Position numbers and translations under genes: made by a program. This document shows positions 12,094 to 30,782 of a stretch of 64,000 nt of DNA, in pieces. Source of the DNA: Streptomyces noursei ATCC 11455 (GTDB taxonomy: Bacteria > Actinomycetota > Actinomycetes > Streptomycetales > Streptomycetaceae); assembly GCF_001704275.1 (NCBI RefSeq), contig NZ_CP011533.1, forward strand, positions 6,510,001-6,574,000. The letters run 5' to 3'. The first letter of the stretch is position 1. The number at the start of each line of letters is the position of its first letter. The notes below the pieces were generated by a model. It was not told the DNA's origin, did no database searches, and saw only the letters and a program-made list of their open reading frames with translations.

Positions 12094-12126
12094 CCATCGA
12101 CGGCAGGAGCCGGAGGACCGGGACGG

Positions 12127-15783: not shown

Positions 15784-17091
15784 TTAGTTGAGTAATTTAC
15801 TGGCTTCGCTGGTGTCGGCAGCGGGCGAGCGCTCCGCCCGTAGCGCAGGCCAGTAGAGCAGACCCCCGGCAATCAACACGGTGACCGCGAATCCAAAAGG
15901 TGCGCTGAATGAACCGGTGAATTCGGCCAACCAGCCGGTCAGTAACACCCCTCCGGTTGTGGCGGCCGTATTGGCGAAGTTCATCAGCCCGCCGACCGCG
16001 CCGACCGCGTGCGGTGGGGCCAGGAGCCCCGGCAGGCTCCAGGCCACCGGCGCGGCCACGGCGAGACCGCTGAGGGAGAGGGACATCCAGAAGACCGCGC
16101 CGAGCGGCGAGCCGGCCCCCCCTGCGCAGCCGATGGTGGCGCCCAGCGCCAGACCGCCCAGCAGGACCGGCCTGCGGGCGGCGACGGCGTCCCGGCCGCC
16201 GCGCACCATGCGGTCGACCAGCCATCCCCCGAAGGCGAACTCGGCCAGGGCCGCTACCAGCCACGGCACCATGGCGTACAGGCCGGCCTGGCCCAGTGCT
16301 ACGCCGAACTGCTTCTGGAAGAAGACCGGCATCCAGGTCAGCACCACGTTGATGGTGTAGCCGTAGCAGGCGAAGCCCAGTGATATCGCCCAGATACGGC
16401 GGGAGCGCAGTACGCCACGCAATCCGCCCGGCGTGCCGTGGACGCCCTGGGCATCGTCGCCGCAGACCTCCGCGTGCTCCGTACCGCGCGGTCGGGGATG
16501 CCCGGCCGGATCGCGGTAGCCCCACCACCACGCCACGGCGAACAGCAGGCTCAGCACAGTGGTGAACAGGAACCCGGCCCGCCATCCCCACACGCTGATC
16601 ACCCACGCCAGTGAGGGGAAGGCGAACACGTTGGCCAGCTTCGTGGCGCCGTCGAACAGCGCGGTGGCCCGGCCCCGTTCAACGGCGGGGAACCATGCGG
16701 CGGTCGCCTTCGAGGCGCCGACCATCGACGGTCCCTCGGCCACGCCCAGCAGCAACCGGGCCAGTATGACGAGCCCCAGACCGGAGGCCATGGCCGTCAG
16801 CAGACTCGCCAGGGCCCATAACGGAACGGCGATGCGGTTCAGCCATTGCACCCCGATACGGTCGGCCAACAGGCCGGAGGGCAGCTGGACCAGGCAGTAG
16901 GACCAGTTGAAAGCGGCCAATACCAAACCGAGTTCGCCGAGGCTCAACCCGAACTCCTCGGCGAGCGGGGTGCTGGCCACCGATAAAACCGTACGGTCGA
17001 AGAAGTTGACGACGATTCCACCGGCCAGGAGTGAGCCGATGGCCCAGCGGGCGCGGCCAGGGAGTGTCATGGAATTCGAACCATCCTTCAT
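15784..17091 (-). CDS. MFS transporter, ACS (anion:cation symporter) type
   Basis: The 435-residue 12-helix transporter has helix 1 IVVNFFDRTVLSVASTPLAEEF, loop SGLLADRIGVQWLNR and helix 4 RLLLGVAEGPSMVGASKATAAWFP, the pattern of the ACS subfamily that moves organic anions such as hexuronates, phthalate or tartrate. ATG 17091 gives a short polar leader; ATG 17070 (MTLPGRAR) is an alternative. It sits between the XRE regulator and the cysE/cysK pair on one strand. It may take up a carboxylic-acid precursor or export an acidic product. The substrate cannot be read from sequence. Confidence 0.85.
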   Translation of the reverse strand: MKDGSNSMTLPGRARWAIGSLLAGGIVVNFFDRTVLSVASTPLAEEFGLSLGELGLVLAAFNWSYCLVQLPSGLLADRIGVQWLNRIAVPLWALASLLTAMASGLGLVILARLLLGVAEGPSMVGASKATAAWFPAVERGRATALFDGATKLANVFAFPSLAWVISVWGWRAGFLFTTVLSLLFAVAWWWGYRDPAGHPRPRGTEHAEVCGDDAQGVHGTPGGLRGVLRSRRIWAISLGFACYGYTINVVLTWMPVFFQKQFGVALGQAGLYAMVPWLVAALAEFAFGGWLVDRMVRGGRDAVAARRPVLLGGLALGATIGCAGGAGSPLGAVFWMSLSLSGLAVAAPVAWSLPGLLAPPHAVGAVGGLMNFANTAATTGGVLLTGWLAEFTGSFSAPFGFAVTVLIAGGLLYWPALRAERSPAADTSEASKLLN

Positions 17092-17219: not shown

Positions 17220-17861
17220 TCAGGCGCTGTTGTCCGCCCGGGAGATATCCGCCTTCTTTCGTTGACGGGCGACAGTGGGCTCGCCCATGATGCGGCGGCC
17301 GGGCGCCACATCGTCGAGCACCAGGGCGTGCGCACCGATCAGAGCGTCGTCACCGATGGCCAGGGGCCCGAGCACGGTGGCGTTCACGCCGAGCGTGACG
17401 CGGTCGCCGACCTGCGGGTGGCGCCGGTCCCCGCTGGGCCGCAGCTTGTCTCGCCACCACCCCACAGCACCCAGCGTGACCTGCTGGTAGATGGTGACGT
17501 CGTCGCCCAGCACGGCGGTCTCGCCGATCACCACGCCGGTGCCGTGGTCGATGAACAGCCGCCGGCCGATCCTCGCCCCCGGGTGGATCTCGACGCCGGT
17601 CAGCACCCGTGCGGAGCTGGTCAGTACGCGCGCGGCGATCCGGTGACGCCGGGCGTACAGGTGGTGCGCGACGCGATAGATCCACACCGCGGGAAGCGTG
17701 GAGTGGAACACCGCCTCCGCCCGGGAGGCGATCGAGGGGTCGCGGGCCAGCGTCGTGTCGATGTCTTCGAGCATCCGCGACAGCGGACCGTTCCCGGTGC
17801 GCCGGCTGCCGAACGGCACTGCGGCCGCTCCCGGTTTCCGGTCGGGCTTCGACTGGAGCAT
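17220..17861 (-). CDS. cysE: Serine O-acetyltransferase
   Basis: The 213-residue protein has an N-terminal helical segment (LARDPSIASRAEAVFHSTLPAVWIYRVAHHLY) followed by left-handed beta-helix hexapeptide repeats (GVEIHPGARIGRRLFIDHGTGVVIGE, then VTIYQQVTLGAVG). The catalytic His of the HGTGVVIGET motif is present. It transfers acetyl from acetyl-CoA to L-serine, making O-acetylserine. Its start lies three bases after the stop of the CysK-like gene upstream, so the pair is cotranscribed and the product feeds that enzyme. Both copies in an island suggest supply of cysteine or a beta-substituted alanine for the pathway rather than housekeeping. Confidence 0.93.
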   Translation of the reverse strand: MLQSKPDRKPGAAAVPFGSRRTGNGPLSRMLEDIDTTLARDPSIASRAEAVFHSTLPAVWIYRVAHHLYARRHRIAARVLTSSARVLTGVEIHPGARIGRRLFIDHGTGVVIGETAVLGDDVTIYQQVTLGAVGWWRDKLRPSGDRRHPQVGDRVTLGVNATVLGPLAIGDDALIGAHALVLDDVAPGRRIMGEPTVARQRKKADISRADNSA

Positions 17862-17864
17862 GGC

Positions 17865-18890
17865 TCAGTTCCCCATGCTTTCGGCCTTCTCCCAGTCTTC
17901 CTTCGAGCCGGAGTCCGCGAAGACCGTGACCACGATGTCGTCGGGGCCGAGGTTCTTCGCCTTCTCGCGCGCGATCAGCCAGCTGGCGCCGGCCGAGGAG
18001 CCGATCCTGGTGCCGGTTTCCTTCCAGAAGTCGTACATCGCCCGGAGCGCTTCGGGGTGCGAGACCTGCGCGCTCTCGAACTCCGGGAGCAGCTTTTCCA
18101 CGAACGGCTGGCGCATCCCGTAGGTCATCCCGCCGGCGCCGGCGAACTTCGGTTTGGCGTTGGGGGGTTCGGGTGTCCCGTACGGAAGCTCGGCGGGGGT
18201 CACGCCGATGACAGACAGGCCGGGGGCGATGCCCCGCAGCGCCCGCGCCACGCCGGCGAGCATGCCGCCGCTGCCCACCGCCGCCACCACGGCAGCGGGG
18301 TGGGCACCGTCGAGCTGGCCCACGATCTCCCGGCCGGTGAAGAACTGGTGCGCGGCGACATTCGCCATGTTCCGGTGCTGCGCCAGCAGCGTCCAGCTCG
18401 GGTCGTCCGCCGCGATCTCCGAGGCGCGCCGCATGATGGCGAGCGGGAACTCGGACGCCGGCACCAGGTCGATGGCGCATCCCCCCTCGGAGAGATGGGT
18501 CAGCAGGCTCTGGGGCACCGAATCCGGCATCACGGCCCGTACGGGGATTCCCGTGATCTTGCTCAGTCCCGTCAGCGCGCGGGCCATGTTGCCGCCCGAG
18601 CAGTCCACGACCTTTAACGGGCCCTCTTTGTCCGTGTGTTCGTTGATGGCGCGGCAGAGCATGGAGTACCCGGGACGGTCCTTGGCAGAGCCGGACGGGT
18701 TCCGGAGCTCGTACTTGGCCATGATCTTCGCCCCGCCGGGCGGACCGGGCACCTCGACGAGCGGTGTACCGCCCAGGGTGGCCCGGAATTCGCGCAGCCC
18801 CGGATATTGGGCGAGCGCCGTGGTCTCGTCGACTGCCGCATCCAGCGGCTCGGTTACGGAGAGTTCGATCTGAGGCGGTTGTGTCGCCAT
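17865..18890 (-). CDS. CysK-like PLP enzyme (beta-replacement)
   Basis: The 341-residue fold-type II PLP enzyme is of the cysteine synthase/cystathionine beta-synthase family. The Schiff-base Lys is in NPSGSAKDRPG, the substrate-carboxylate loop is CSGGNMA in place of the usual TSGNTG, a glycine-rich phosphate loop VGSGGMLAG follows, and the end reads VFADSGSKEDW. ATG 18890 (MATQPPQIELS) is preferred over the longer frame to 19025. It is coupled to the serine acetyltransferase that follows it. The altered substrate loop suggests a nucleophile other than sulfide, so the product may be a beta-substituted alanine, though plain cysteine is possible. Confidence 0.88.
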   Translation of the reverse strand: MATQPPQIELSVTEPLDAAVDETTALAQYPGLREFRATLGGTPLVEVPGPPGGAKIMAKYELRNPSGSAKDRPGYSMLCRAINEHTDKEGPLKVVDCSGGNMARALTGLSKITGIPVRAVMPDSVPQSLLTHLSEGGCAIDLVPASEFPLAIMRRASEIAADDPSWTLLAQHRNMANVAAHQFFTGREIVGQLDGAHPAAVVAAVGSGGMLAGVARALRGIAPGLSVIGVTPAELPYGTPEPPNAKPKFAGAGGMTYGMRQPFVEKLLPEFESAQVSHPEALRAMYDFWKETGTRIGSSAGASWLIAREKAKNLGPDDIVVTVFADSGSKEDWEKAESMGN

Positions 18891-19060
18891 CGGGCTCACA
18901 GTCCCTTCGCCAATTCGCAGTCTGCGCGGCCAGTTCCGCGCTGCTTCGCGCTCTTCGCGCACATGCACGACCGGGTAGATCGTCAGCGAGCCCGTGAGAG
19001 GTGTCAATGAAACCCAGGTGTTCAAGCAGTCGCCTCAACGGCCGTACGGAGAAAACGAAT

Positions 19061-19095
19061 CGGTGCCCGGCTCCCGGCTTCGGGGCCGGGCACCG
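19061..19095 (-). terminator. Intrinsic terminator after DHA2 exporter
   Basis: An 11-base perfect stem (19061-19071 with 19085-19095) is followed on the minus strand by a T-rich ATTCGTTTTC. It sits just past the exporter stop at 19118 and insulates the exporter from the cysK-cysE genes. Confidence 0.75.
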
Positions 19096-19117
19096 GCGCT
19101 TCGACGGGCCCAGGGGC

Positions 19118-20500
19118 CTATGCCGGCTGGTCGGCGGGTCGCCGGGCTTTGAGCAGCCAGAGCGCCAGCAACCCGCTCCCCAGCCCGACGACGGCCGCGA
19201 CCACGAATACCGCGGACAGCCCGCTCGCGTACTCCGCATGCAGGTCGACGCGGCCCTTGCCGGACGAGAACTGGTGGAATACGGAGCCGAGTACGGCGAT
19301 GCCCAGCGCCAGGCCGAGCTGGCGTGCACAGTTGGCCGCGGCGGAGGCGACCCCGCTCTGTGACGCGGGCGCGGCAGACATGGCGATGGCGGGAAGCACG
19401 GGGGAGACGATGCCCGCGCCGATACCGGTGATGACCAGTCCCGGTACCAGCGCTGCCCAGGACGAGCCGGCATCGACCGTCAGCATGAGGACGTTGCCCA
19501 CGCCCACGGCCACCGTGCCGCCGCCGAGTGTCACGTATGAGGGAAGCCGGTGCAGTGCGCTGCCGACCACGGCGGAGGTGGTGAAGAACGCCACCGGCTG
19601 CACCGTGATGACCAGAGCCGTGGGCAGTGAGGTGAGCCCCACGCTGTCCTGCAGCCAGATCGACATGACTGGCAGCGAACCGAAGCCGGCGAGGTAGTAC
19701 CCCATGGCTGCGACCAGCGTTCCGTTGAACTCCCGCTTGCGGAACAGGGAAAGCGAGATCATCGGGTTGCTGCTGGCCCGCTCGACCAGGATGAACGCGA
19801 TGAGCATCAGTACGCCGACGACGAAGCCGAGCACCGCGGAGGTGGCCCCCCACCCCTGCTCGCCGCCGCGGATGATACCGAAGGTGATGCCGATCGCCGC
19901 GAGGGTGAAGGTGCAGATGCCCAGGTAGTCGATGCGGGTCGAGGTACTGGCGTCGTCGATCAGCACCGCGGCGGACAGCGCCACCGTGAGCACGCAGACC
20001 GGCACCCCGCCGAAGAAGATCCACTGCCAGGACAGGAACTGCGTCAGGATGCCGCCCGCGACATTGCCGATACCGGCGGCGGCACCGGCGACCGCACCCC
20101 AGATCGCGAAGGCCACGCCCTTGTCGCGTCCGGTGTAGGTGAGTCCGATCAGGGGCAGCAGGGTCGAGAACATCGCGGCACCGGCCAGGCCCTGTACCGC
20201 CCGCGCAGCGATCAGTACGGCGACATTGCCGGCTAATCCGCAGACGAGCGTGGAGACGCCGAAGATCCCCAGGCCGGCCAGGTAGAGGCGTTTGCGCCCC
20301 AGGTTGTCGCCGAGCGATCCCATGCCGAGCAGCAGCCCTGCGAGGGCGAGGGTATAGACATCGACGATCCACTGCAGGGAGCCGAAGCTCGCGTGCAGGT
20401 CGTGGGCCATGCTGGGGAGCGCCACCGTCACGATCGTCGAGTAGACGAGCAGCATGAACGTTCCCAAGCAGGTGGCGACCAACGGCAGCCATTTGCGCAT
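19118..20500 (-). CDS. MFS drug exporter, EmrB/QacA (DHA2) type
   Basis: The 460-residue 14-helix exporter has helix 1 LVATCLGTFMLLVYSTIVTVALPSM, loop GSLGDNLGRKRLYLAG, and the antiporter motif C-like AAMFSTLLPLIGLTYTGRDKGVAFAIWGAVAGAA. The family uses proton antiport to expel antibiotics and is often the self-resistance exporter of a cluster. It is divergent from a CGNR-type regulator whose leaderless start is 59 bp away, a classic exporter/regulator pairing. The intergenic CCTTCCGG direct repeats (from about 20511 and 20528) are candidate operators. A strong terminator follows. Confidence 0.9.
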   Translation of the reverse strand: MRKWLPLVATCLGTFMLLVYSTIVTVALPSMAHDLHASFGSLQWIVDVYTLALAGLLLGMGSLGDNLGRKRLYLAGLGIFGVSTLVCGLAGNVAVLIAARAVQGLAGAAMFSTLLPLIGLTYTGRDKGVAFAIWGAVAGAAAGIGNVAGGILTQFLSWQWIFFGGVPVCVLTVALSAAVLIDDASTSTRIDYLGICTFTLAAIGITFGIIRGGEQGWGATSAVLGFVVGVLMLIAFILVERASSNPMISLSLFRKREFNGTLVAAMGYYLAGFGSLPVMSIWLQDSVGLTSLPTALVITVQPVAFFTTSAVVGSALHRLPSYVTLGGGTVAVGVGNVLMLTVDAGSSWAALVPGLVITGIGAGIVSPVLPAIAMSAAPASQSGVASAAANCARQLGLALGIAVLGSVFHQFSSGKGRVDLHAEYASGLSAVFVVAAVVGLGSGLLALWLLKARRPADQPA

Positions 20501-20510
20501 GGTTGTACTT

Positions 20511-20558
20511 CCTTCCGGGGCCTGGAGCCTTCCGGAACAAGCCTGCTGTAATATCCTT
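20511..20558 (+). promoter_or_regulatory. Leaderless promoter and candidate operator
   Basis: TAATAT at 20549-20554 is an excellent -10 hexamer lying only four bases before the ATG at 20559, and no ribosome site is present, so the regulator mRNA is probably leaderless. CCTTCCGG occurs twice just upstream (from about 20511 and 20528), the second inside the palindrome TTCCGGAA. This suggests an operator for the divergent pair. Confidence 0.6.
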
Positions 20559-21110
20559 ATGCAACAGAACCCTTACGGGGAGGATCCCGTACGGCTCATC
20601 CTGGACCTCGCCGCCGCGCCACCGCGTTCCCCCGGGGAATTCGCCGAACGCTGCGTCGCGGCGGGCATGGCGATCGACCGGGCGGTGGGCGACGAAGACC
20701 TGGCGGAGATCCTGGAGTTCATCCCGCGCTGGCTCGCGGTGGTCGACGCCGATACCCCCGAGCGGCGCGCCGCGCTGCTCAACGAACTGCTGACGACCTC
20801 GTCCGCGTACCCGCGGCTGACCGACCACGCCGACGGCGGCTGGCACATCCACTACCGTGCCGATGGCCTGGGCCTGGCGGGGGTGGTGCGGGCAGTGGTC
20901 AGTGTGGGCACCGCTCTGCACCTGACCAGCCGCGGCATGGACCGCCTCGGCCGCTGTGCGCTGGCCGAGTGCGGCCGGGCGTACGGCGACTTCACACGGG
21001 GCGGCCGACAGCGCTACTGCTGCCACACCTGCGCGAACCGCGACGCCGTACGTCGCTTCCGCACCCGGCAGGCCGGCACAGAACCCGTGAGGCCGGCGGC
21101 GAGGGGGTGA
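20559..21110 (+). CDS. CGNR zinc-finger transcriptional regulator
   Basis: The 183-residue protein has an N-terminal ABATE-like ligand region (about 1-125) and a C-terminal CGNR zinc finger: RCALAECGRAYGDFTRGGRQ, then YCCHTCANRDAVRRFR, with four Cys placed to bind zinc. The family acts as small-molecule-responsive regulators, often of stress or efflux genes. ATG 20559 follows a -10 box by four bases (leaderless). A longer upstream frame to 20454 overlaps the divergent exporter and is not supported. Likely target: the DHA2 exporter next door. It converges with the polyketide synthase gene, with 31 bp between the stops. Confidence 0.85.
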   Translation: MQQNPYGEDPVRLILDLAAAPPRSPGEFAERCVAAGMAIDRAVGDEDLAEILEFIPRWLAVVDADTPERRAALLNELLTTSSAYPRLTDHADGGWHIHYRADGLGLAGVVRAVVSVGTALHLTSRGMDRLGRCALAECGRAYGDFTRGGRQRYCCHTCANRDAVRRFRTRQAGTEPVRPAARG

Positions 21111-21141
21111 CCGCCGACCTCACGGGTCGTCACAGTGGCAT

Positions 21142-24100
21142 CTACGGCGACTCGGCCGGTCCGGTCGCCGGGGTCGCCTCGGCGTCCGTGACGACCGCAG
21201 TGAGCTTCGCGGGCGTCGGATGGGACAACAGCTCCCGCAGGGACACCGTCACCCCCAGCGCCTCCTGTATCCGGTTCGCCAACTGGGTGCCGAGCAGGGA
21301 GTGCCCGCCCAGCTCGAAGAAGTCGTCGTGGACCCCGATGCCCTCGAACCCGAGGGACTCCTCCCACAGCGCCACGATCCGTTTCTCGGTCTCGTCGCGC
21401 GGGGCGGTGTAGCCGGACCGCAGTCCGGCGGGCCGTGTCGAGCGCTCCTCGGCGGCTGCCTTGGGCACCGGGGCCACGGGCCGTGTGTCGCCGGCTTCCA
21501 CGGGCAAGTCGGCCGTCCCGGCGCCCTGCCTCCCGCTCGGCCCGATCCAATGGCGCTCCCGCTGGAACGGGTAGCCGGGCAGCGTGGCCCGCTGCCGTGG
21601 TCCGTCGTGCAGTGCGGGCCAGCGCACCTCGCCGCCCGCCAGCCACAGGTCCCCGACCCCGCGCAGCAGCGTCTCCATGTCGTCGCCCGCCTCACCGGGG
21701 CGGCGCATCGTCCGGACGGTGGAGATCCCCCGGCGACCGGCCAGGGCCGCCCTGGACAGCGTGGACAACGCGGTGCCGGGCCCAACCTCGACCAGCACGG
21801 TACGGCCCTTGGCCGCCGCCGTACGGACCGCGTCGGCGAAGCGCACCGGCCGACGGGCGTGGCCGCCCCAGTACGCCGGGTCCATGGCCTGCTCGGGGGT
21901 GATCGGCTGCCCGGTCACTCCCGAGACGAACGGCCGCTCGCACGGAGCGAGGGCAGCGCCGCGTACCGCCCCGGTCAGCGGGCCGACCACCGGGTCCATC
22001 ATCGCCGAGTGGAAGGCGTGCGAGGTGTGCAGACGCCGCGTCGCCACCCCGGTGCCGGCCAGTTCACGTTCCAGTGCGGCCACGCCCTCCTCGGGACCGG
22101 CGGCCACGCACAGGGCCGGGGCATTGACCGCAGCGACGGACACTCCTGCCGGCAGCAGCGGTACGAGCGTCTCCTCGGACGCCTCGACCGACAGCATCAC
22201 CCCCGGGGGTTGCTCGCCCATCAGCCGGCCGCGCAGCGCGACCAGGCGCAGCGCGTCCTCCAGCGGCAGCACCCCGGCCAGGCAGGCGGCAGTGAACTCG
22301 CCGACGCTGTGGCCCACCATGTCATCGGGCTCCACACCCCAGCGCAGCAGCAGCCGCGCCAGCGCGTATTCGGTGGCGAACAGCGCCGGCTGTGCCACCT
22401 CCGTCGAAGTGAGCCGCTCGGCATCGGCGGCCGTGCCGTACAACACCTCGCGAAGGTCGAGGCCGAGATCGGCGCGCAGCAGCTGGGCCGAGCGGTCGAT
22501 GTCGGCGGCGAAGCCCGGATCCGCCGTGTAGAGGCCGTGGCCCATCGCGGGGAACTGTGTGCCCTGGCCGGGGAACAGGAAGACCGTACGCGGCCGACCG
22601 GTGCCCGCGTCGCCCTGGCGTGCGCGGTCGGGGTCTGTGCCACCAAGCAGCGATGCCGCGCGCGCCGGGTCGGGGGGGACGAGGACCGCGCGGCGGTGGC
22701 GCATCGGCCGCCTGCCGGTCTGCAGGGTGTACGCGGCGTCGGCGACCGCGGGGGCGTCCGGCCCGGCCAACCGCCCAGCCAGCCGGTCCGTCGCGGCCTC
22801 CAGCGCCTGCGGCGTCTTGGCCGACAGCAGGAGGAGCTGCGGCCGGGGAGCGGCGGACACTAGCTCGGGAGCCGGGCATGCGGTCGGAGCCTCTTCGAGG
22901 ATCACGTGGGCGTTGGTGCCACCGATACCGAAGGAGCTGACACCGATGCGGCGCGGGACGTCACCCGGATTCCAGGCAACCCGTTGGTCGTTCACCCGGA
23001 ACGGCGTCGCATCGAAGTCGATTCGCGGGTTGGGCGTACGGAAGTGGAGGCTGGGAGCCAACTCCCGGTGCTGCAGCTGCAGTACGGCCTTGATCAGACT
23101 CGCGATGCCGGCCGCGGACTCCAGGTGCCCGATGTTGGACTTCACTGAGCCGATGGCGCAGTAGCCGGTGTCCTCGGTGAAGTGCCGGTGGGCGCGGGTC
23201 AGCGCGTTGATCTCGATGGGGTCGCCGATGGGGGTGGCGGTGCCGTGCGCCTCGACGGCGGTGACGGTCCGGGCGTCCACCCCGCCCGCACGCAGCGCCT
23301 GTAGAACCACCCGCTCCTGTCCCGTGACGCCGGGCGAGGTGTAACTGACCTTGTCGGAGCCGTCGTTGTTGACCGCGGAGCCCTTGAGTACAGCCAGCAC
23401 CCGGTCGCCGTCGGCCACCGCGTCCGTGAGCCGCTTCAGTACGACCACGCCGACGCCGCTGCCGAAGACGGTGCCCCGGGCCTCGGCGTCGAAGGGGCGG
23501 CAGTGCCCGTCCGGCGAGTAGATCAGACCGCGCTCGTAGCGGTATCCCACCCGGTGCGGCACCCGTACGCACACGCCGCCGGCGAGCGCGACATCGCATG
23601 CCCCGGTGCGCAGCGACTGCGCCGCTTCGTGCACCGCGACCAGCGACGTGGAACAGGCCGTCTGCACCGACAGCGCGGGTCCGGTGAAACCGAGTTGATG
23701 GGCGGCGCGGGTCGCGAGGTAATCCTTGTCGTTGTGGATCTGCAGCTCGAAGACGGCCGAGTCGAGCACGATCCGCCGGCCGCCCAGCAGGTTTGACATC
23801 AGGTACGCGGGCATGTTGGCGCCCGCGAAAACCCCGCCGGAACGCACCGCCGCCGGGTCGATACCGGCATGTTCCAGGGCGTGCCAGGCGCACTCCAGGA
23901 ACAGGCGCTGCTGCGGGTCCAGGAGGGCCGCCTCCCGCGCGCTGAAGCCGAAGAACCGCGCGTCGAAGAGGTCCACACCGTCCAGGAGCGGGGCGGCCGG
24001 CACGTACTCCGGCCGTTCGAACTCGGCCCGCTCGATGCCCTCGGCGAGCAGGTCCGCTTCTTCCAGCCGCGTGATGGACTCGACGCCGTCCCGCAGATTG

Positions 24101-24210
24101 CGCCAGTAGGCGTCGATGTCCTCGGCGCCGGGGAAGCGGCCCGCCATCCCGACGACGGCGATGTCGGTGGCAGCCGGGTCCGTGGTGGGGTCGTCGTCGC
24201 GCAGGGTCAT
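21142..24210 (-). CDS. Type I polyketide synthase, single KS-AT-ACP module
   Basis: The 1022-residue minimal module has a ketosynthase (about 15-440) with Cys186 in TACSTS, His322 in EAHGTATP and His362 in NIGHLES; an acyltransferase (about 545-830) with Ser635 in GHSVGE and HAFH at 731-734, the signature for malonyl-CoA; the linker LPGYPFQRERHW; and a carrier domain with phosphopantetheine Ser971 in GGHSLL. There is no ketoreductase, dehydratase or docking domain, so one condensation should leave a beta-keto acyl chain. ATG 24210 overlaps the preceding oxidase stop. It is last in the biosynthetic run and probably extends the starter held by the free carrier protein at 27987. Iterative use cannot be excluded. 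Confidence 0.95.
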   Translation of the reverse strand: MTLRDDDPTTDPAATDIAVVGMAGRFPGAEDIDAYWRNLRDGVESITRLEEADLLAEGIERAEFERPEYVPAAPLLDGVDLFDARFFGFSAREAALLDPQQRLFLECAWHALEHAGIDPAAVRSGGVFAGANMPAYLMSNLLGGRRIVLDSAVFELQIHNDKDYLATRAAHQLGFTGPALSVQTACSTSLVAVHEAAQSLRTGACDVALAGGVCVRVPHRVGYRYERGLIYSPDGHCRPFDAEARGTVFGSGVGVVVLKRLTDAVADGDRVLAVLKGSAVNNDGSDKVSYTSPGVTGQERVVLQALRAGGVDARTVTAVEAHGTATPIGDPIEINALTRAHRHFTEDTGYCAIGSVKSNIGHLESAAGIASLIKAVLQLQHRELAPSLHFRTPNPRIDFDATPFRVNDQRVAWNPGDVPRRIGVSSFGIGGTNAHVILEEAPTACPAPELVSAAPRPQLLLLSAKTPQALEAATDRLAGRLAGPDAPAVADAAYTLQTGRRPMRHRRAVLVPPDPARAASLLGGTDPDRARQGDAGTGRPRTVFLFPGQGTQFPAMGHGLYTADPGFAADIDRSAQLLRADLGLDLREVLYGTAADAERLTSTEVAQPALFATEYALARLLLRWGVEPDDMVGHSVGEFTAACLAGVLPLEDALRLVALRGRLMGEQPPGVMLSVEASEETLVPLLPAGVSVAAVNAPALCVAAGPEEGVAALERELAGTGVATRRLHTSHAFHSAMMDPVVGPLTGAVRGAALAPCERPFVSGVTGQPITPEQAMDPAYWGGHARRPVRFADAVRTAAAKGRTVLVEVGPGTALSTLSRAALAGRRGISTVRTMRRPGEAGDDMETLLRGVGDLWLAGGEVRWPALHDGPRQRATLPGYPFQRERHWIGPSGRQGAGTADLPVEAGDTRPVAPVPKAAAEERSTRPAGLRSGYTAPRDETEKRIVALWEESLGFEGIGVHDDFFELGGHSLLGTQLANRIQEALGVTVSLRELLSHPTPAKLTAVVTDAEATPATGPAESP

Positions 24211-25415
24211 GCCACGATCCCGGACGGTCCGGCGGGGGTGAGAGCGTGCCGGCCGATGTCGTACGCGGTGGTCCCGTCGAGGGCGAGATCGGCGCAGATC
24301 TTCCCCCACAGCGGGGTGAACTTGAAGCCCCAGCCGGCCACGGACACCACGACGTTCTCGCCGCCGTTCACGAGCGCGCCGGCGTCACCGAGGAAGAACT
24401 GCCGGGCGGGGTCCTTGGGCAGCATCGCCAGGCAGGTGGACAACTCCGTCGGCCGCGGGTCGGCCCAGGGCATGTGCGCGGTGGCCCAGTCGGTCACCCG
24501 CTCCACCGGCCGTGCGGCCGGTATGCCCTTCGCTTCGTCGGCGTGGTTCAGCGCGTCGACCTCGAAGACCGGGCCGAGCCGGATGTCGTCGCTGGCCGAC
24601 CACGGGTTGGGCGGGAAACCGTAGAACAGGTTGGTGTCCTCGTCCGTGGGTTGCTGGAAGGCGAACCAGAACGGCCGTCCGGGATCGGCCCGGCGCTGGT
24701 TGAGGGTGACCAGCGGCAGCTCGTACAGACCAACGTCCAGCTTTGAACCCCACGCTCCCAGAAGGTCGTTGGCGTGGGCACCGTTAGTGATCACGACCTT
24801 GTCCGAGCGGTAGGTGCGCTCCTCCGTCCGGACGGTGACGCCGCCGGAATCCGGGTTGACCTCCAGCACCCGCTCGTTGCCGCGCAGCACCGCCCCGTGC
24901 TGCTGGGAGAGCTGGAAGACCGCGCCGATCGTGCCGCGTACGTCGATGGCGCCGCCGTCCCGCTGGAGGAAGCCCTCGTAGTGGCCCGGGAGGCTGGTGA
25001 AGCCGTAGCGGCGCTCGATCTCCGCGGCGGTCAGCCACTCGTAGGGCACGTCCATCTCGTCCATGGCACGTGCGGTCCCGGAGATCTGGCCCTCGTTGGT
25101 CTTCACCTCGGTGTCGCCGAACCACAGGCTGCCCACCTCATGGAGGAGCTTGCGGCCGGTCAGCGACTCCAGCTCCCGCCACATCGGCAGGGCCTCAAGG
25201 GTCAGCGCGAAGATGTCCCGCTCGGTGTACTGGAGCCGCCAGTGCCGCTCGGCGCCGCTCGTCCCGCCCCGCTCGTTCATGAAGCCGTACCGCTCCAGGA
25301 CGAGTACCTTGCGGCCGCCGCGCCGGGCCGCCTGCCAGGCCGTGGACAGGCCGATCGGCCCGCCGCCTATCACGATGAGGTCGTAGTGCTGGTTGTAGTC
25401 GCTCATGTGCGTCAC
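24207..25415 (-). CDS. Sarcosine-oxidase-like (NikD/MTOX type) flavoenzyme
   Basis: The 402-residue amine oxidase is of the monomeric sarcosine oxidase family. It has the N-terminal dinucleotide fold DLIVIGGGPIGLSTAWQAARRGG, a Trp/Arg-rich region with SGAERHWRLQY, and Cys in ELSTCLAML near residue 310, where this family links FAD covalently. Relatives oxidise N-methyl amino acids or, as in NikD, desaturate piperideine-2-carboxylate to picolinate. With a DegT aminotransferase, an aryl-AMP ligase and a carrier protein in the same run, picolinate formation is an attractive inference. GTG 25415 is used; ATG 25406 is equally plausible. The stop overlaps the polyketide synthase start. Confidence 0.88.
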   Translation of the reverse strand: MTHMSDYNQHYDLIVIGGGPIGLSTAWQAARRGGRKVLVLERYGFMNERGGTSGAERHWRLQYTERDIFALTLEALPMWRELESLTGRKLLHEVGSLWFGDTEVKTNEGQISGTARAMDEMDVPYEWLTAAEIERRYGFTSLPGHYEGFLQRDGGAIDVRGTIGAVFQLSQQHGAVLRGNERVLEVNPDSGGVTVRTEERTYRSDKVVITNGAHANDLLGAWGSKLDVGLYELPLVTLNQRRADPGRPFWFAFQQPTDEDTNLFYGFPPNPWSASDDIRLGPVFEVDALNHADEAKGIPAARPVERVTDWATAHMPWADPRPTELSTCLAMLPKDPARQFFLGDAGALVNGGENVVVSVAGWGFKFTPLWGKICADLALDGTTAYDIGRHALTPAGPSGIVA

Positions 25416-25471
25416 TCATTTCTTCACGGGAGAGGGGGCCGGGGTCTGGGGCCCGGCGGAGGGCGGGGGCG

Positions 25472-26230
25472 TCAGCGGGCCGGCAACGCGAGCAGCTCGG
25501 AGACCGCGGCTACCGTCTCGGTGAGCCGTTCGCGGGGGTAGAAGTGCCCGCCGTCGAAAATCCGGTCCGTGAAGCCGGCCCGGGTGAAGGCCGCCCATTC
25601 GCGCACGTCCCGCGGTGTCACCGCCGGGTCGTCCGCACCGCAGAACGCGGTGACGGGCAGGTCCAGCGCCGGGGTGTCGGCACCGAACCGGCAGGACTCC
25701 AGCACCTGGTAGTCGTTGCGCACGACCGACACGATCATCCGCACCAGCTCCGGGTTCTCGGACACGCCCCTGGGGACGCCGCCGAGCCGGACGAGCTCGT
25801 CGAGGACACCCTCGTCGTCGTGCCGCAGAAGGTCACCGGCGTGGATCCGAGGCGGGGCGAACTGGCTGGAGACGATCAGCCGGTCCGGCGTCGGGTAGCC
25901 CGACTCCTCCCACCGGCGGGCGATCTCGTACCCGACGGCGGCCCCCATGCTGTGGCCGAAGAACGTGAACGGCAGGTCCAGCGCCGGGGCGAGCTCGGCG
26001 GCGAGAAGACCGGCGAGCTCGTCCATGTCGTCGATGAGCGGATCGTCGATGCGCTCCTCACGACCGGGGTACTGCACCGCCAACAGGTCGATATCCGAGG
26101 GGAGTTCGTCTCGCCAGCGGCGGTAGAAGGAGGCGCCTCCGCCGGCGTACGGGAAGCAGACGAGCTGGTGGCGGGGCGGTGAGGCACCGGCGGCGTACTT
26201 GATCAGCGGGGTCGTGCGCCCCAGATACAT
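25472..26230 (-). CDS. Type II thioesterase
   Basis: The 252-residue alpha/beta hydrolase has HQLVCFPYAGGGASFYRRW at the N-terminus, nucleophile Ser in GHSMGAA, the acid Asp in FCGADDPAVTP and a catalytic His near GGHFYP. These are hallmarks of stand-alone editing thioesterases that clear stalled or mis-primed carrier proteins; with no terminal TE domain on the synthase it may also release the product. It follows the AMP-ligase by 65 bp and precedes the oxidase by 56 bp on the same strand, consistent with one operon. Confidence 0.92.
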   Translation of the reverse strand: MYLGRTTPLIKYAAGASPPRHQLVCFPYAGGGASFYRRWRDELPSDIDLLAVQYPGREERIDDPLIDDMDELAGLLAAELAPALDLPFTFFGHSMGAAVGYEIARRWEESGYPTPDRLIVSSQFAPPRIHAGDLLRHDDEGVLDELVRLGGVPRGVSENPELVRMIVSVVRNDYQVLESCRFGADTPALDLPVTAFCGADDPAVTPRDVREWAAFTRAGFTDRIFDGGHFYPRERLTETVAAVSELLALPAR

Positions 26231-26295
26231 GGATTCACCTCATGGTGGTATGCGGGTGTGGGGATACGGCATGCGCGGACCGCGCGCGGGTGGGC

Positions 26296-27990
26296 TTAGT
26301 GCGCTTCAGAGGCGAGTCGGCCGGCGATGTCCTCCCGCAGAGCCTTCTTGTCGATCTTCCCGATGCCGGTCAGCGGCAGGGCGTCCACGACTTCCAGCCG
26401 CTCGGGAAACTTGAAGCCGGCCAGGCCTTGCTGTTCCAGGAACCGGCGCAGCTCCCGCAGCCCGACCGTGCCCTCGCCGTCGAGGACGGCGTACAGGCAC
26501 ACCACCTCGCCGTAGAGTTCGTGCGGCATGGCGACACCGGCCGCCTGGACGATCCGCGGGTGGCGCTGGGCGATGGACTCCAGTTCCTCCGCGGAGATCT
26601 TCTCGCCGCCGCGGTTGATGGAGTCCCGTACCCGGCCCTCCAGGACGACGTTGCCGCCGCTGTCCAAGCGCACCAAGTCGCCGGTCCGGTAGAAGCCGTC
26701 GGGTGTGAACGCCGCGGCGGTGGCCTCGGGATTGCGGTAGTAGCCGGCGACGGTATAGGGGCCGCGGGTCAGCAGCTCACCCATATCGCCTTCGGCCACC
26801 GGCTTGCCGTCGGCGTCGACGACCCGGAACTCGTCCGCCGCACTGGCCGGTCTGCCCTGAGTGGTGTGGACGACGTCGTCAGGGTCGTCGAGGCGAGTGA
26901 AGCACAGCAGTCCCTCGCTCATGCCGTAGCACTGCTGGAGCGTGGCGCCCAGCTCGGTGCGGACCCGGGCGGCCGCTTCGGCGCCGGGCCGGGCGCCGCC
27001 GACCTGGATCACCTCCAGGCTGCTCAGATCGGCCCCGGACTCCGGCGCGGCGGCCAGCCACTGAAGCATCAGGGTCGGGACGAGGGTGCAGTGGGTCACC
27101 CGCTCCCGCTCGATCAACTCGAAGGCGGAGCGAGGACTGTTGGGGTTCGCGAGCACAACCCGGCCGCCCGCGATCAGCGTGCCGAGCACCCCCGGGCAGT
27201 TCATCACGAAGCCGTGGGCGGCGGGCATGACCGCAAGGTTGACCGACTCCGAAGTGATTCCCGCGATGCCGACAGCGGTACGGATCATGTAGCCGTAGCC
27301 CTCGTGGGACCGCGGGATCGCCTTCGGCAGCCCGGTGGTGCCGCCGGAGAGCAGGAAGACGGCGGCATCCCCGGGAGTGGCACCGGATGCGTCCGCGTCG
27401 GTACGACGGGTGTCCGGCGCGGTGCTGCCGGGCTCGGGTCGGCACAGCCGCGCCAGATCCGTCTCGCCCTCGGCGAGTTGCCCCGCTCCCCGTATGAGGA
27501 GATGGCGCAGGCCGGGGTGCCGGTCCCGCAGCGTGCGGGCCAGCCCGAGCAGACCTGCGCGGCGGGTTCCGGCGTCCACGGCCAGGGCGACGGGCCGGGT
27601 GACGGACACGATGTGGTTCAGCTCGTGTTCCCGGAACGCCGGAAGGATCAGCACCGGCGGCGCCCCCACATGCAGCAGCGCCAGCACCAGGACGACATAC
27701 TCCAGGCAGTTGGGCAGCTGTACGCAGACCCGGTCGCCGGGGGCGATGCCCTGGGTGCGCAGTCGGCCGGCCGCCTCGTGCACCGCCCGCGCCAGTTCCG
27801 CGTAGGTCATCCGGCGGTCACCGTCGACGAGGGCGCAGCGATCGGGCTGGGCCCGGCACCGGTCGAGCACGAGGTCGCTGACCAGCTCCTGCCGCCACAG
27901 CCCGGCGTCGCGGTAGGCCGCGGCGCGGTCGGCGGCGAGGGCGATCACCTCCGTGTCCAGCGCGGCGCGCTCGCTGACCGGCGCCGTCAT
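26296..27990 (-). CDS. Aryl acid-AMP ligase (EntE/DhbE-like)
   Basis: The 564-residue ANL-family adenylating enzyme has core A3 LSGGTTGLPKAI, A5 YGMSEG, A7 GFYRTGDLVRLD and A10 PLTGIGKIDKKAL with the catalytic Lys. The layout is that of stand-alone ligases for dihydroxybenzoate, salicylate or hydroxypicolinate. In the substrate loop MPAAHGFVMNCPG, Gly replaces the Asn of the HN(Y/F) motif that contacts the 2-hydroxyl in DhbE/EntE, so the substrate probably lacks that group or binds differently. ATG 27990 overlaps the stop of the carrier-protein gene (ATGA), so the two are translationally coupled and the ligase likely loads that carrier. Confidence 0.9.
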   Translation of the reverse strand: MTAPVSERAALDTEVIALAADRAAAYRDAGLWRQELVSDLVLDRCRAQPDRCALVDGDRRMTYAELARAVHEAAGRLRTQGIAPGDRVCVQLPNCLEYVVLVLALLHVGAPPVLILPAFREHELNHIVSVTRPVALAVDAGTRRAGLLGLARTLRDRHPGLRHLLIRGAGQLAEGETDLARLCRPEPGSTAPDTRRTDADASGATPGDAAVFLLSGGTTGLPKAIPRSHEGYGYMIRTAVGIAGITSESVNLAVMPAAHGFVMNCPGVLGTLIAGGRVVLANPNSPRSAFELIERERVTHCTLVPTLMLQWLAAAPESGADLSSLEVIQVGGARPGAEAAARVRTELGATLQQCYGMSEGLLCFTRLDDPDDVVHTTQGRPASAADEFRVVDADGKPVAEGDMGELLTRGPYTVAGYYRNPEATAAAFTPDGFYRTGDLVRLDSGGNVVLEGRVRDSINRGGEKISAEELESIAQRHPRIVQAAGVAMPHELYGEVVCLYAVLDGEGTVGLRELRRFLEQQGLAGFKFPERLEVVDALPLTGIGKIDKKALREDIAGRLASEAH

Positions 27991-28247
27991 GACCCGCTCC
28001 GCTGCTCGCCGACGAGCTCGGCCAGCTGGCCCAGCGTGTAGTCGTCCTGGTCCCACAGGTCGACCGTCACACCGAACCGCTGCTTGAGCGCGAGCTGCAG
28101 CTCGGTGGTCTCCACCGAGCTGAGCCCGAGCTCGGCACGGAGCTTCCAGTCCGTGGTGGCCTCCGCCAACTCCGTTTCGTCAAGGCCTATTTCGACCAGC
28201 GTGGCGGTCACCGCGCTAAGCAGGTCGGCCGTCTCATGCATCGACAA
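27987..28247 (-). CDS. Stand-alone acyl/aryl carrier protein
   Basis: This small protein (84-86 residues) has four-helix carrier topology and the phosphopantetheine site in ELGLSSVETTELQLAL, where Ser replaces the usual Asp before the attachment Ser. A TTG at 28247 is preceded by GGAGG nine bases away, which is better than the ATG two codons later (28241, giving MHETADLL). The longer frame to 28301 is not needed. It is overlapped by the AMP-ligase start and should receive the activated starter acid and hand it to the ketosynthase of the one-module synthase. Confidence 0.88.
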   Translation of the reverse strand: MSMHETADLLSAVTATLVEIGLDETELAEATTDWKLRAELGLSSVETTELQLALKQRFGVTVDLWDQDDYTLGQLAELVGEQRSGS

Positions 28248-28349
28248 GGGAAAATGCCTCCAACATCCGCTGTCATCCGGGGGTGCGAGGGCGCCTGGCA
28301 ATACCGGGGATACGACGGCGCCCTGGGTGAGGTGTTCCGGCCTTCGGGT

Positions 28350-29483
28350 TCAGCGCTCCGGGGCGCGTGCGGTCATCTCGCGTGCGAACTCCTGCCATAT
28401 GCGGGCGCATTCGCCCGCTACGTCGGCCACCGCGCGGGCGCAGTGCGGGGGGACCCCGCCGACCAGGGCCTGCCAATGGGTGAGCGGGATCTCATGGGAG
28501 CTGAGCAGCCGGAGCAGCGCGCGTCCCATGTCGGTAGAGCGCAGTGCGGGGTCCTGCTTCAGGACGCGCACCCGCTCCGGCAACGGCGGACGCCGCAGGT
28601 CCGAGCCGGTGCCCGGGGACGGAGGCATGAGGCGGTCATCCCCGGCACCGTCATGGGCACCGTCGACACCGCCCGAGCCGCCGGCGTCATCCCTGCCGCC
28701 CGCTCCGCCCTCGATGCGCCATGAGACGAGGGGGGTGCGGGGAGCTGCGCCGACCGCCCGGTGTCCCTTGCCGCGCGGCGCGGGCACCGGATTCTGGCCG
28801 TTCTCCAGCCGTTTGCGCACGTCCTGGGCAGTGCCCAGAGATATCCCCGCCGAGCTGGCGATCTCCCGCAGCGAGGCGTATGGCCGCTCGCTGATCAACT
28901 TGCTGGCGTAAAGCCGACCTTCGGCCACGCTGGCCGGGTGCGTCCGGCCATCCCGGCCGAGCCTATCCACCCCGTTCAGCTGAGGATCTTCCTCGGCTGA
29001 ACGGCGCCGGATGACGCCCACGGTCTTCGGGGACAGCCCCGACACCGATCCGATCGACCGATCCGACCACTGCGGGTAAGCGTGCAGTATGCGGGCGGCC
29101 GCCGCCTTGCGGTCGCTCAGCGACAGCGGCAGTCCGTGAGCGACGTTCGAGCGGACAGCGAGGACGAAGCTTTCCTCTTCCGTGCCTTCGAAGAACTCCA
29201 CACGGATCTGCGTGCCGCCGCGCAGGAGTTGAGCGCGCACCCGGTGCGTCCCGTCGAGTACGCGCATCGTCGGGCGGTGCACCAGGACGGGCGGCAGCAG
29301 CGAGGGGTCCAGCACGGCCAGCGCCCTGACGTGTTCCGGATCCTGGCCGCCGCTGCGCAGCGGGCAGGACATGTCCAGTGCGCTGATCGGTACGGTTACG
29401 GCCCGGCCCCGCCGCGCGGCACCGAGGCCGGGAGCGGCCTCCGGTACCCGTAACGCTGACTCGACGGTCATCCCACCACTCAC
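28350..29483 (-). CDS. StrR-type (ParB-like) pathway activator
   Basis: The 377-residue protein has an N-terminal ParB/sulfiredoxin-like domain (PPVLVHRPTMRVLDGTHRVRAQLL and VEFFEGTEEESFVLAVRSNVAHGLPLSLSDRKAAA) and a central helix-turn-helix (DRSIGSVSGLSPKTVGVIRRR), the arrangement of StrR, NovG and Tei15*-type pathway-specific activators. A second HTH-like stretch, YASLREIASSAGISLGTAQD, lies near residue 215. The C-terminal part is longer than in StrR and Gly/Asp-rich. GTG 29483 has AGGGA upstream. It is in the biosynthetic run, 15 bp after the aminotransferase, and probably switches on the cluster. It is not a partition protein: there is no ParA or parS context. Confidence 0.85.
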   Translation of the reverse strand: MSGGMTVESALRVPEAAPGLGAARRGRAVTVPISALDMSCPLRSGGQDPEHVRALAVLDPSLLPPVLVHRPTMRVLDGTHRVRAQLLRGGTQIRVEFFEGTEEESFVLAVRSNVAHGLPLSLSDRKAAAARILHAYPQWSDRSIGSVSGLSPKTVGVIRRRSAEEDPQLNGVDRLGRDGRTHPASVAEGRLYASKLISERPYASLREIASSAGISLGTAQDVRKRLENGQNPVPAPRGKGHRAVGAAPRTPLVSWRIEGGAGGRDDAGGSGGVDGAHDGAGDDRLMPPSPGTGSDLRRPPLPERVRVLKQDPALRSTDMGRALLRLLSSHEIPLTHWQALVGGVPPHCARAVADVAGECARIWQEFAREMTARAPER

Positions 29484-29498
29484 GTTCGTCCCTGCAAG

Positions 29499-30782
29499 TC
29501 AGCCGGCCGCCAGCGCGGCACCCAGCCTGGGCGTGTCCGTACCGCTCGCCATGGCCTGGACCTCGGCCAGCGACTCGTCCAGTGCTTCGACGAGATAGTC
29601 CACCTGTGAGGGCCGCAGTTCGGGGTGGCAGGGGAGGTTGAGGTGCTGGTCGAACCACATGCTCTCGGCGACCGGGCACTCGCCGCGACCGTGGCCGCGG
29701 TGCCGCCACTCGGGGGTCAGATGCAGCGGGAAATAGCGCAGCTGGATCTCCACCCCCCGCCGGTCCAGCGCCAGCAGCAGCTGGTCACGCAGGGCGCGGG
29801 TGTCCGCGAAGCAGGTGTAGAGGTGGTAGGCGTGACCACTGTGCGCGGGTGCCTGTTGGGGGCGTACGAACGGATAGCGGCGCAGCACCGCATCGAGCCG
29901 CGCCGCGATCGAGCGCCGGGTCGCCTGAAGGGTATCCAGCCTGCCGAGCTGCGCCAGGCCGACGGCCGCCGCGGCCTCGGACATCGTGGCATTGGTGCCG
30001 GCCCGCCGGATCAGGGTGACTCGGTCGCTGTAGACCGCGGCGGAGTACTTCATCCACGGCAGCACCAGCGGCTCGTCGGGATCGATCCGCTCCTCTGGCT
30101 CGATCTGCGCGTCGACATCGTTGCCACGCAGCCGCTCCAGACGCACGGCCCAGTCGTCACGGTCGAAGGTGACCATGCCGCCCTCGCCGAGCGTGGTGAT
30201 GTTCTTGGCGTTCTGAAAGCTGAAGGTGCCGATGTCGGCCAGCGAACCCGGCCTGCGCCCGCGGTAGTCGGCGCCCAGCGCGTGCGCGCAGTCCTCGACG
30301 ACGAGGATGCCGTGACGGCGGGCGATCGCCATGATCTCGTCCATCTCGGCCGGGCAGCCGCCGTAGTGCACCAGAAGCAGTGCCTTGGTGCGCGGCGTGA
30401 TCAGCGCCTCCACCGCGGTCGGGTCGATGTTGAGGGTCGTCGGATCGATGTCACAGAAGCGGACCGTCACCTCGCGGTCCAACAACGGCATGACGGTGGC
30501 CTGATAGGTCTGGGGAGTGGCGATGACCTCGTCGCCGGGCCGCAGGTCGAGGAGCTGGATCGCCAGTTCCAGTGAGACGGTTCCGCTGGTGGTCGTCATC
30601 GCGTACCGGCTACCGACCAGCTGAGCGAAGGCCCGCTCGAACCGGTCGCGCCAGGTACCCAACGACAGTGGGGCATCGCCCTGCACCAGTTCGGTGAGCT
30701 CCCTGACCTCGACCTCGCCCAGTACACTGCCCCGTTTCGCACAGGGCACTACATAGCTCCTGTCCAACATGCGTCCCATCAA
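29499..30782 (-). CDS. DegT/DnrJ/EryC1-family aminotransferase
   Basis: The 427-residue fold-type I PLP enzyme has TTTSGTVSLELAIQLLDLRPGDEVIATPQTYQATV, Asp in VVEDCAHALGADYRGRRPG and the Schiff-base Lys in SFQNAKNITTLGEGG. The family includes sugar aminotransferases and also enzymes acting on amino acids. No sugar-nucleotide genes lie nearby, so an amino-acid role, for example lysine alpha-transamination ahead of the NikD-like oxidase, is inferred. It is the first gene of the minus-strand biosynthetic run. ATG 30782 is the longest start; ATG 30770 (MLDRSYVVP) is an alternative. Confidence 0.85.
   Translation of the reverse strand: MMGRMLDRSYVVPCAKRGSVLGEVEVRELTELVQGDAPLSLGTWRDRFERAFAQLVGSRYAMTTTSGTVSLELAIQLLDLRPGDEVIATPQTYQATVMPLLDREVTVRFCDIDPTTLNIDPTAVEALITPRTKALLLVHYGGCPAEMDEIMAIARRHGILVVEDCAHALGADYRGRRPGSLADIGTFSFQNAKNITTLGEGGMVTFDRDDWAVRLERLRGNDVDAQIEPEERIDPDEPLVLPWMKYSAAVYSDRVTLIRRAGTNATMSEAAAAVGLAQLGRLDTLQATRRSIAARLDAVLRRYPFVRPQQAPAHSGHAYHLYTCFADTRALRDQLLLALDRRGVEIQLRYFPLHLTPEWRHRGHGRGECPVAESMWFDQHLNLPCHPELRPSQVDYLVEALDESLAEVQAMASGTDTPRLGAALAAG

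Follow-up and report, generated by a model that had tools for sequence, protein, structure and literature searches.

Five genes on the minus strand of Streptomyces noursei ATCC 11455 encode a DegT-fold aminotransferase, a NikD-like oxidase, an aryl-AMP ligase, a carrier protein and a small polyketide synthase (PKS), and they share a locus with cysE- and cysK-like genes, which raises the question of what such a set could make. The window, i.e. the whole stretch of 64,000 nucleotides that was analysed, covers bases 6510001-6574000 of the 9.8-Mb one-contig genome (NZ_CP011533.1); positions are counted from its first letter. Our answer, drawn from gene content, homologies, clades, motifs and an iron box, is that the cluster very probably makes the scaffold of a pyridyl-pyrroline Fe2+ chelator from lysine, malonate and serine. 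We propose this because the ros loci of Erwinia rhapontici, Erwinia persicina and a Pantoea sp. hold the same enzyme set, and because the oxidase falls into the NikD/RosE clade, the PKS is the best match to RosF in the genome, and the CysK-like enzyme belongs to the RosC family and has a CysE-like gene beside it. The ligase signature His-Gly, the acyltransferase motif HAFH, the FecCD genes with their iron box and a pair of complementary split loci in two other genomes point the same way. Most likely, the locus is an actinobacterial version of the Erwinia pink pigment pathway, the extra genes of which should give a new derivative, and its gene set would be best explained if the cluster were iron-regulated, exported the chelator and took it back up. 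The Streptomyces cluster thereby gains a likely structure class, a mass and a colour test.

Extent of the cluster and proposed pathway

The original prediction, made from the letters alone, had placed the locus at 17220..30782. All genes that it named were found where it had put them, on the same strand, coding and with Pfam matches, including the five minus-strand genes from which it had read a route that leads from transamination of lysine through oxidation to a picolinate-type acid, and on to its activation, loading and elongation by one malonyl unit; the clades and motifs described below lend support to that predicted route. Inside the block we add a type II thioesterase (25472-26230). The cluster itself is larger and spans about 3.1-30.8 kb (roughly 28 kb), since the genes at 3.1-17.2 kb, which encode an AsnB-like enzyme, a cytochrome P450, a major facilitator superfamily (MFS) transporter, an AraC regulator, FecCD-type uptake, a MurB-like enzyme, a conserved protein and a second MFS transporter, are kept in relatives. 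In agreement with the prediction that a non-ribosomal peptide synthetase (NRPS) module and a ketoreductase are lacking, no ketoreductase or condensation domain was matched by Pfam in the scanned genes at 3.1-30.8 kb.

In the proposed pathway, the DegT-fold enzyme would convert lysine to the 2-keto acid/piperideine-2-carboxylate, the NikD-like oxidase would turn the latter into picolinate, and the ligase would activate picolinate as picolinoyl-AMP for transfer onto the carrier. After one malonyl extension by the PKS, which comprises ketosynthase (KS), acyltransferase (AT) and acyl carrier protein (ACP) domains, the thioesterase would free picolinoylacetate. O-acetylserine made by CysE would be turned by the CysK-like enzyme into aminoacrylate bound to pyridoxal phosphate (PLP), and attack on it by the carbon of the (decarboxylating) picolinoylacetate would give 2-amino-5-oxo-5-(2-pyridyl)pentanoate, expected to close by itself to 2-(2-pyridyl)-1-pyrroline-5-carboxylate. 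Finally, the AsnB-like enzyme would likely turn the carboxylate into an amide, and hydroxylation by the P450 would give C10H11N3O2. All of these reactions are predictions, and this applies most of all to the steps of AsnB and P450, both in their order and in their site. The small acyl-beta-keto compound expected earlier would thus probably occur as an intermediate, with a pyridyl-pyrroline expected as the end product.

Proposed steps from lysine to picolinate

Three loci, in S. acidiscabies, S. eurythermus and S. niveiscabiei, encode oxidases 87-98% identical to NikD in the order NikC-NikD-NikE, which we take to be the nik gene order, and were treated as nikkomycin-type. The window aminotransferase is 54-55% identical to the protein in the NikC position of these loci. 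In a tree that included 7 of the 12 DegT paralogues of the searched genomes (coverage below 60% was left out), the cluster, nikkomycin-type and siderochelin-type enzymes and three further ones formed a clade (99/99) apart from the seven paralogues. A role in sugar metabolism, which could have been suspected of a DegT enzyme, was rejected on this ground, and the grouping with NikC-position enzymes is the one that had been anticipated.

The oxidase likewise groups with NikD, as predicted. It matched NikD (2oln) at E 1.6e-152 (58% identity), against E 4.8e-26 for the best sarcosine oxidase, and fell into a NikD/RosE clade (100/100) apart from three siderochelin-type oxidases and three SolA-like ones (L004 of G014, L005 of G068 and L006 of G023), so that a sarcosine oxidase or SolA role was rejected. 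Within the clade, the cluster and ros enzymes join before the nik enzymes (93/94). Four of five NikD active-site residues are kept, namely E101, Y258, C321 and W355, with numbering and roles as we presume them to be.

Elsewhere, no oxidase of at least 60% identity turned up among 72,556 plasmid records, where the best match had 42%. Staphylococcus plasmids (H2, H15-H17) encode a flavin adenine dinucleotide (FAD) oxidase 33-34% identical to that of the window (E 2e-78 to 2e-69), with E-values much better than those of the SolA-type enzymes among the matches listed. A further NikC/NikD-like pair (47-49%) lies beside cyclodeaminase-like and NRPS-like genes, identified by eye, at L111 and L112 (G345, G437), which probably represent another picolinate- or pipecolate-type cluster.

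Predicted activation, extension and release

The ligase carries the residue pair His-Gly in 15 of 15 picolinate-type loci (9/9 of the cluster type, 3/3 ros and 3/3 nikkomycin-type). The pair is Phe-Asn in all three siderochelin-type loci and in one further ligase of Amycolatopsis bartoniae (G153:C4), and His-Asn in the three solved ligases for salicylate or dihydroxybenzoate (DHB) that were compared, out of 13 listed, the Asn of which we presume to lie near the ortho-hydroxyl. A 3-hydroxypicolinate starter was rejected, given His-Gly instead of Phe-Asn, and no flavin hydroxylase was matched among the scanned cluster genes. His-Gly versus X-Asn is a short residue rule that may separate picolinate ligases from those for ortho-hydroxy aryl acids.

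The window PKS contains the KS cysteine. Its AT motif, HAFH, is shared by the relatives and ros and is presumably of the malonyl type, whereas three siderochelin-type loci have VASH. When RosF was searched against this genome, the window PKS came first of 51 matches (699.7 bits; next 487.7).

The CysE-like and CysK-like enzymes

The CysE-like gene adjoins or lies near the CysK-like gene in relatives too. The open frame of the latter extends to a TTG at 19025; the start probably lies near 18899, because the upstream stretch is out of frame in Streptomyces sp. CT34 and contains a stop in Streptantibioticus ferralitis. A tree of 34 of 37 loci (matches shorter than 170 residues were left out) and one PDB segment placed 18 rows in one family, separated (100/100) from 17 others, i.e. 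housekeeping paralogues and one solved cysteine synthase. Within the family, a branch (99/99) divides the window enzymes, RosC and the A. bartoniae enzyme from eight others, of which seven belong to other clusters and one is a long-branched paralogue. The loop reads SGGNM, compared with TSGNT in the solved cysteine synthase. The earlier suggestion that these genes add either a cysteine or a beta-substituted alanine can thus be narrowed: the alanine is likelier, and most likely both enzymes supply and attach a three-carbon amino acid unit through a C-C bond formed on the aminoacrylate derived from O-acetylserine. Incorporation of cysteine was rejected, given the SGGNM loop and the lack of an NRPS module in the scanned genes. 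The family is worth testing as a source of biocatalysts that form C-C bonds.

Relatives with 43-49% identity occur in seven loci of other Streptomyces (L104-L110), six of which have a CysE-like gene in the 20 kb read; a KS-like gene borders one of these stretches, and several have an ATP-grasp-like gene and an MFS gene (by eye). Each of the clusters of genomes G592 and G605 (L151-L154) has a pair of distinct CysK-like genes, with about 50% and 41% identity to the window enzyme; one lies next to iron uptake genes, the other next to CysE and PKS genes.

Comparison with known pathways

Two reports describe related systems. Proferrorosamine A is an Fe2+ chelator, and the ros cluster is that of E. 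rhapontici P45 (Born et al. 2016, via PMC11481915, PMC9650351); its proposed route in E. rhapontici joins picolinate, one malonyl unit added by a type I PKS, and O-acetylserine through RosC, followed by spontaneous ring closure (PMC11481915). PMC9650351 reports rosA-G for every strain of E. persicina and E. rhapontici that it covers. For siderochelin of Amycolatopsis WAC04611, a parallel route from 3-hydroxypicolinate and methylmalonyl has been proposed, and deletion of the AsnB-like gene sidA stops amide formation (PMC11481915). The statement that no described pathway has this set is therefore supported only in part: ros and sid share its logic, though neither gene list is identical (PMC11481915, PMC9650351).

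In the locus L044, genes for a ligase, thioesterase, CysK-like enzyme, AOC-like barrel, oxidase, KS-AT-ACP protein and ELFV dehydrogenase follow one another and were assigned to rosA-G by this order. The window has the RosE-type oxidase (48-50% to ros), the ligase (47-48%) and carrier (35-40%) corresponding to RosA, the type II thioesterase (32-36%), the RosC-family enzyme (46-48%) and the malonyl KS-AT-ACP protein corresponding to RosF (41-45%), and in both systems iron uptake genes are adjacent (by eye). Unlike ros, the window has a NikC-like aminotransferase, its own CysE, AsnB-like enzyme and P450, and ParB, AraC and CGNR regulators. RosG was matched at E<1 in the three ros loci only and not in the window, where the NikC-like aminotransferase seems to take its place.

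With sid the window shares a lysine aminotransferase, an AMP ligase, a serine acetyltransferase and a homologue of RosC. An AsnB-like gene is present in the window and in two of three loci (G563, G658, G612) that we call siderochelin-type on the grounds of their architecture, in which KS and acyltransferase are discrete proteins and a NikD-like oxidase is lacking. The sid system differs in its 3-hydroxypicolinate starter, methylmalonyl unit, discrete PKS proteins and cupin SidB, whereas the window has picolinate and malonyl signatures, a single KS-AT-ACP protein, a NikD-like oxidase and a P450; no cupin was matched among its scanned cluster genes. The aminotransferase, oxidase and ligase are 53-58% identical to the NikC-NikD-NikE module of nikkomycin, but no nucleoside genes were seen in the window cluster, and its ligase is paired with a carrier and PKS. 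The cluster can be regarded as a variant of the proferrorosamine and siderochelin pathways, the predicted product of which should differ from both, and it links the Erwinia and Amycolatopsis pathways through intermediate forms.

Tailoring genes and the predicted product

The AsnB and P450 genes occur as a pair not only in the window but also in S. albospinus, CT34, G592 and G605 and, in genomes G036 and G048, at the second locus. Since both are kept with the cluster, an amide with one more oxygen is predicted, a hydroxylated pyridyl-pyrroline carboxamide, C10H11N3O2 (205.0851, [M+H]+ 206.092), by analogy with siderochelin; dehydrogenation to a pyrrole ring is a possible alternative outcome of the P450 step. 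A P450 with 42% identity in the G048C41 stretch lies 11 kb off the cluster end, beside another PKS.

Occurrence in other genomes and a split pathway

A pattern scan for the oxidase in a collection of 84,980 species, which reaches close relatives only, found 10 loci. The cluster is present at 77-96% protein identity in S. albospinus, CT34 and S. ferralitis, and its core in A. bartoniae, while the Enterobacterales loci (E. rhapontici, E. persicina, Pantoea sp. A4) hold the ligase, carrier, thioesterase, CysK-like enzyme, oxidase and PKS. Among 392 genomes of the genus, the oxidase (E<1e-60) was found in 9, the CysK-like gene (E<1e-50) in 11 and both in 4, an overlap with a chance of 4e-5 in a hypergeometric test that ignores kinship. 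A CysK-like gene occurs in 9 of 390 genomes of the A. bartoniae family. Of these nine, G592 and G605 have a window-type cluster in which the MurB-like gene, the ABC ATPase gene and the second MFS gene were not matched, G563, G658 and G612 have the siderochelin-type cluster, A. bartoniae has its own, and in the other three the 20 kb read contained no oxidase and no PKS. Among the open-access papers listed, none dealt with a Streptomyces cluster of this kind.

G036 and G048 carry the pathway at two loci. The first encodes the aminotransferase, carrier, ligase, thioesterase, oxidase, PKS and a RosD-like protein, together with ParB, CGNR, two exporters, the conserved protein, the MurB-like enzyme, FecCD and the binding protein (46-76% to the window for both groups), with no CysE or CysK. 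The only close CysK-like gene of these genomes (90%; next 35%) lies at the second locus with CysE, ParB, AsnB, P450, MFS and AraC genes, most of them 81-91% identical; its ParB has 71% identity in G048, and the match in G036 covers residues 1-238 of 377. The DNA of the second locus aligns with the S. albospinus cluster on both sides of two large gaps, of which one removes the aminotransferase and the other everything from carrier to exporter. Of the genes compared, only ParB is found at both loci and only the ABC ATPase orthologue at neither. On the simplest reading, the two loci now work together, and the two genomes may derive from one shared splitting event; a different product made without O-acetylserine was dropped in view of the 90% CysK-like gene at the second locus. 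These genomes are a natural experiment in which the cluster came apart yet kept nearly all of its parts.

It is quite possible, although we propose this tentatively, that the cluster represents a third branch of pyridyl-pyrroline Fe2+ chelators, built from picolinate, malonyl and O-acetylserine with AsnB amidation and P450 oxidation to a desmethyl, non-phenolic siderochelin-like carboxamide, and working in trans from two distant loci in two Streptomyces after clean complementary losses.

Alternative explanations

Several findings weigh against the proposed pathway. No window protein matched RosD, the AOC-like barrel, at E<1, and the AOC protein of G036 gave only two matches in the window (E 0.73 and 0.96). 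RosD is present in the ros, A. bartoniae and G036/G048 first loci and in none of the AsnB-bearing stretches; a weak match of 23 residues in the flank of CT34 (L081; E 0.01 and 0.001) falls within a long frame rich in proline and arginine and was judged a chance hit. With RosD missing from the window, a step may run differently. Asp276 of NikD is Val in the window oxidase, though it is Ile in two nikkomycin-type loci. The CysK-like tree leaves the nearest-kin relation of the window enzymes and RosC unsettled within their branch, and the family also occurs in the seven Streptomyces loci mentioned above, without a NikD-like oxidase or KS-AT-ACP protein in the 20 kb read; therefore, membership is no proof of C-C bond formation. 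AsnB is 53% identical to the siderochelin-type AsnB and 61% to its own paralogue, which gives no support to direct orthology with SidA, so that amidation is suggested by analogy with SidA, without a special sequence match. The S. ferralitis core locus has no AsnB, P450 or AraC gene within roughly 8 kb to one side or in the 5 kb that remain on the opposite side before the contig ends, and an AsnB search of that genome found only a 61% fragment (residues 2-115). Finally, 4 of 14 related loci (G036C1, G048C41, G153, G563) have no iron box of at least 14/19.

Some of these points bear on a rather unlikely alternative, in which the end product is plain proferrorosamine A, a carboxylate, and AsnB and P450 are used for a different product or work elsewhere. 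The core genes suffice for that compound, and the core stands without AsnB and P450 not only in S. ferralitis but also in A. bartoniae (31 kb). Yet the two genes lie side by side and accompany the core in five loci of two families, the pair recurs at the second locus of each split genome, AsnB directly adjoins the aminotransferase in S. albospinus, and deletion of sidA abolishes the siderochelin amide (PMC11481915). Very unlikely, in our view, is a supply of cysteine for a picolinoyl thiazoline or a bipyridine of the caerulomycin/collismycin kind. The homology of both genes to cysteine pathway enzymes would fit, and the caerulomycin and collismycin pathways start from picolinate; however, those 2,2'-bipyridine clusters use an NRPS module for cysteine, and no condensation, cyclisation or NRPS adenylation module was found among the scanned cluster genes, while the CysK-like enzyme lies outside the housekeeping clade, differs in its loop and has the ros precedent. 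Less probable still is that CysE and CysK make a free beta-substituted alanine of the 2,3-diaminopropionate type as a separate precursor. SbnA does score in NCBIfam for the CysK-like protein, below the cut-off, and the related genes in other clusters have ATP-grasp-like neighbours in several cases (by eye), but no SbnB-like or ATP-grasp match was obtained among the scanned cluster genes, and the CysK-like gene accompanies a NikD-like oxidase and PKS in Erwinia/Pantoea and in two actinobacterial families.

Iron uptake, regulation and other genes

The site at 9903-9921 is the sole iron-box match of 15/19 in the window; the consensus was taken from PMC11481915, with G or C permitted at the centre. 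The AraC gene and the third MFS gene are each closely preceded by a further match of 13/19, a strength reached 0.4 times per whole window after shuffling. Boxes of at least 14/19 were found in 10 of 14 related loci and nowhere in 504 kb of resampled sequence. The MurB-like gene lies next to the iron uptake genes in Streptomyces-type clusters and was not found in the G592, G605 and A. bartoniae stretches; a second MurB is encoded at G000:C1:5237777 (43% to this paralogue), and the cluster copy could be a pathway reductase or serve self-protection. Relatives of the ParB-like regulator (44-85%) occur in the clusters, with none found in A. bartoniae.

Table 1 Features of the cluster, in window positions (ABC, ATP-binding cassette; HTH, helix-turn-helix).
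Feature	Position	Strand	Evidence
Asparagine-synthase-like amidotransferase, predicted carboxamide-forming	3101..4927	-	Asn_synthase 9.7e-88; asn_synth_AEB; orthologues 76-94% beside P450
Cytochrome P450, predicted tailoring oxygenase	5041..6261	-	p450 3.8e-25; orthologues 63-92% in six loci; start inferred
Third MFS transporter	6311..7546	-	MFS_1 3.4e-44
AraC-family regulator	7760..8773	-	HTH_18 3.3e-19
Periplasmic-binding-type iron-chelate lipoprotein	8822..9826	-	Peripla_BP_2 3.5e-10
DtxR/IdeR-type iron box	9903..9921	.	15/19; 156-bp gap between divergent binding-protein and FecCD genes
Two FecCD permeases and ABC ATPase, iron-chelate uptake	9983..12969	+	FecCD 4.6e-87, 1.2e-76; ABC_tran 6.6e-33
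MurB-like FAD enzyme, paralogue of housekeeping MurB	12956..14023	-	FAD_binding_4 and MurB_C
Cluster-conserved protein, regulator-like by eye	14222..15586	-	no Pfam match; relatives 35-94%, some partial-length
Second MFS transporter	15784..17091	-	MFS_1 2.5e-52; kept in Streptomyces-type loci; unmatched in A. bartoniae, G592, G605
CysE-like serine O-acetyltransferase	17220..17861	-	cysE/EpsC family match
RosC-type CysK-like PLP enzyme	17865..18899	-	PALP 2.9e-45; 46-48% to Erwinia/Pantoea RosC
DHA2-type MFS exporter	19118..20500	-	MFS_1 2.5e-42; 50-93% in 8 other oxidase-PKS core loci
CGNR zinc-finger regulator	20454..21110	+	zf-CGNR 1.1e-8; kept beside MFS gene
KS-AT-ACP mini-PKS, malonyl-type AT, RosF orthologue	21142..24210	-	KS 1.6e-70, AT 7.4e-54, ACP 2.4e-16
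NikD/RosE-type FAD oxidase, predicted piperideine-2-carboxylate to picolinate	24207..25415	-	Pfam DAO E 4.6e-38
Type II thioesterase (RosB-like)	25472..26230	-	Pfam Thioesterase 1.5e-48; GHSMG; 32-36% to ros genes
Aryl-AMP ligase, predicted picolinate-activating	26296..27990	-	Pfam E 2e-72; EntE/DHB-AMP-ligase family
Stand-alone acyl/aryl carrier protein	27987..28247	-	PP-binding 5.8e-5 (weakest Pfam match); LGLSSVE serine motif
ParB/StrR-like regulator (by eye)	28350..29483	-	HTH_23 1.4e-4, below cut-off
DegT-fold aminotransferase, predicted L-lysine 2-aminotransferase (NikC-like)	29499..30782	-	Pfam DegT E 2.6e-95

About 2 kb beyond the right end of the cluster, at 32790-34076, lies a gene for a tyrosine-recombinase-type integrase (by eye); neither it nor two tested neighbours had a match in the related stretches. 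Further on, large genes at 40541-43402, 50612-53443, 44822-46837 and 56680-58614 form two look-alike pairs, glycosyltransferase-like and PIG-L-like by eye, which suggests a duplicated surface-polysaccharide block.

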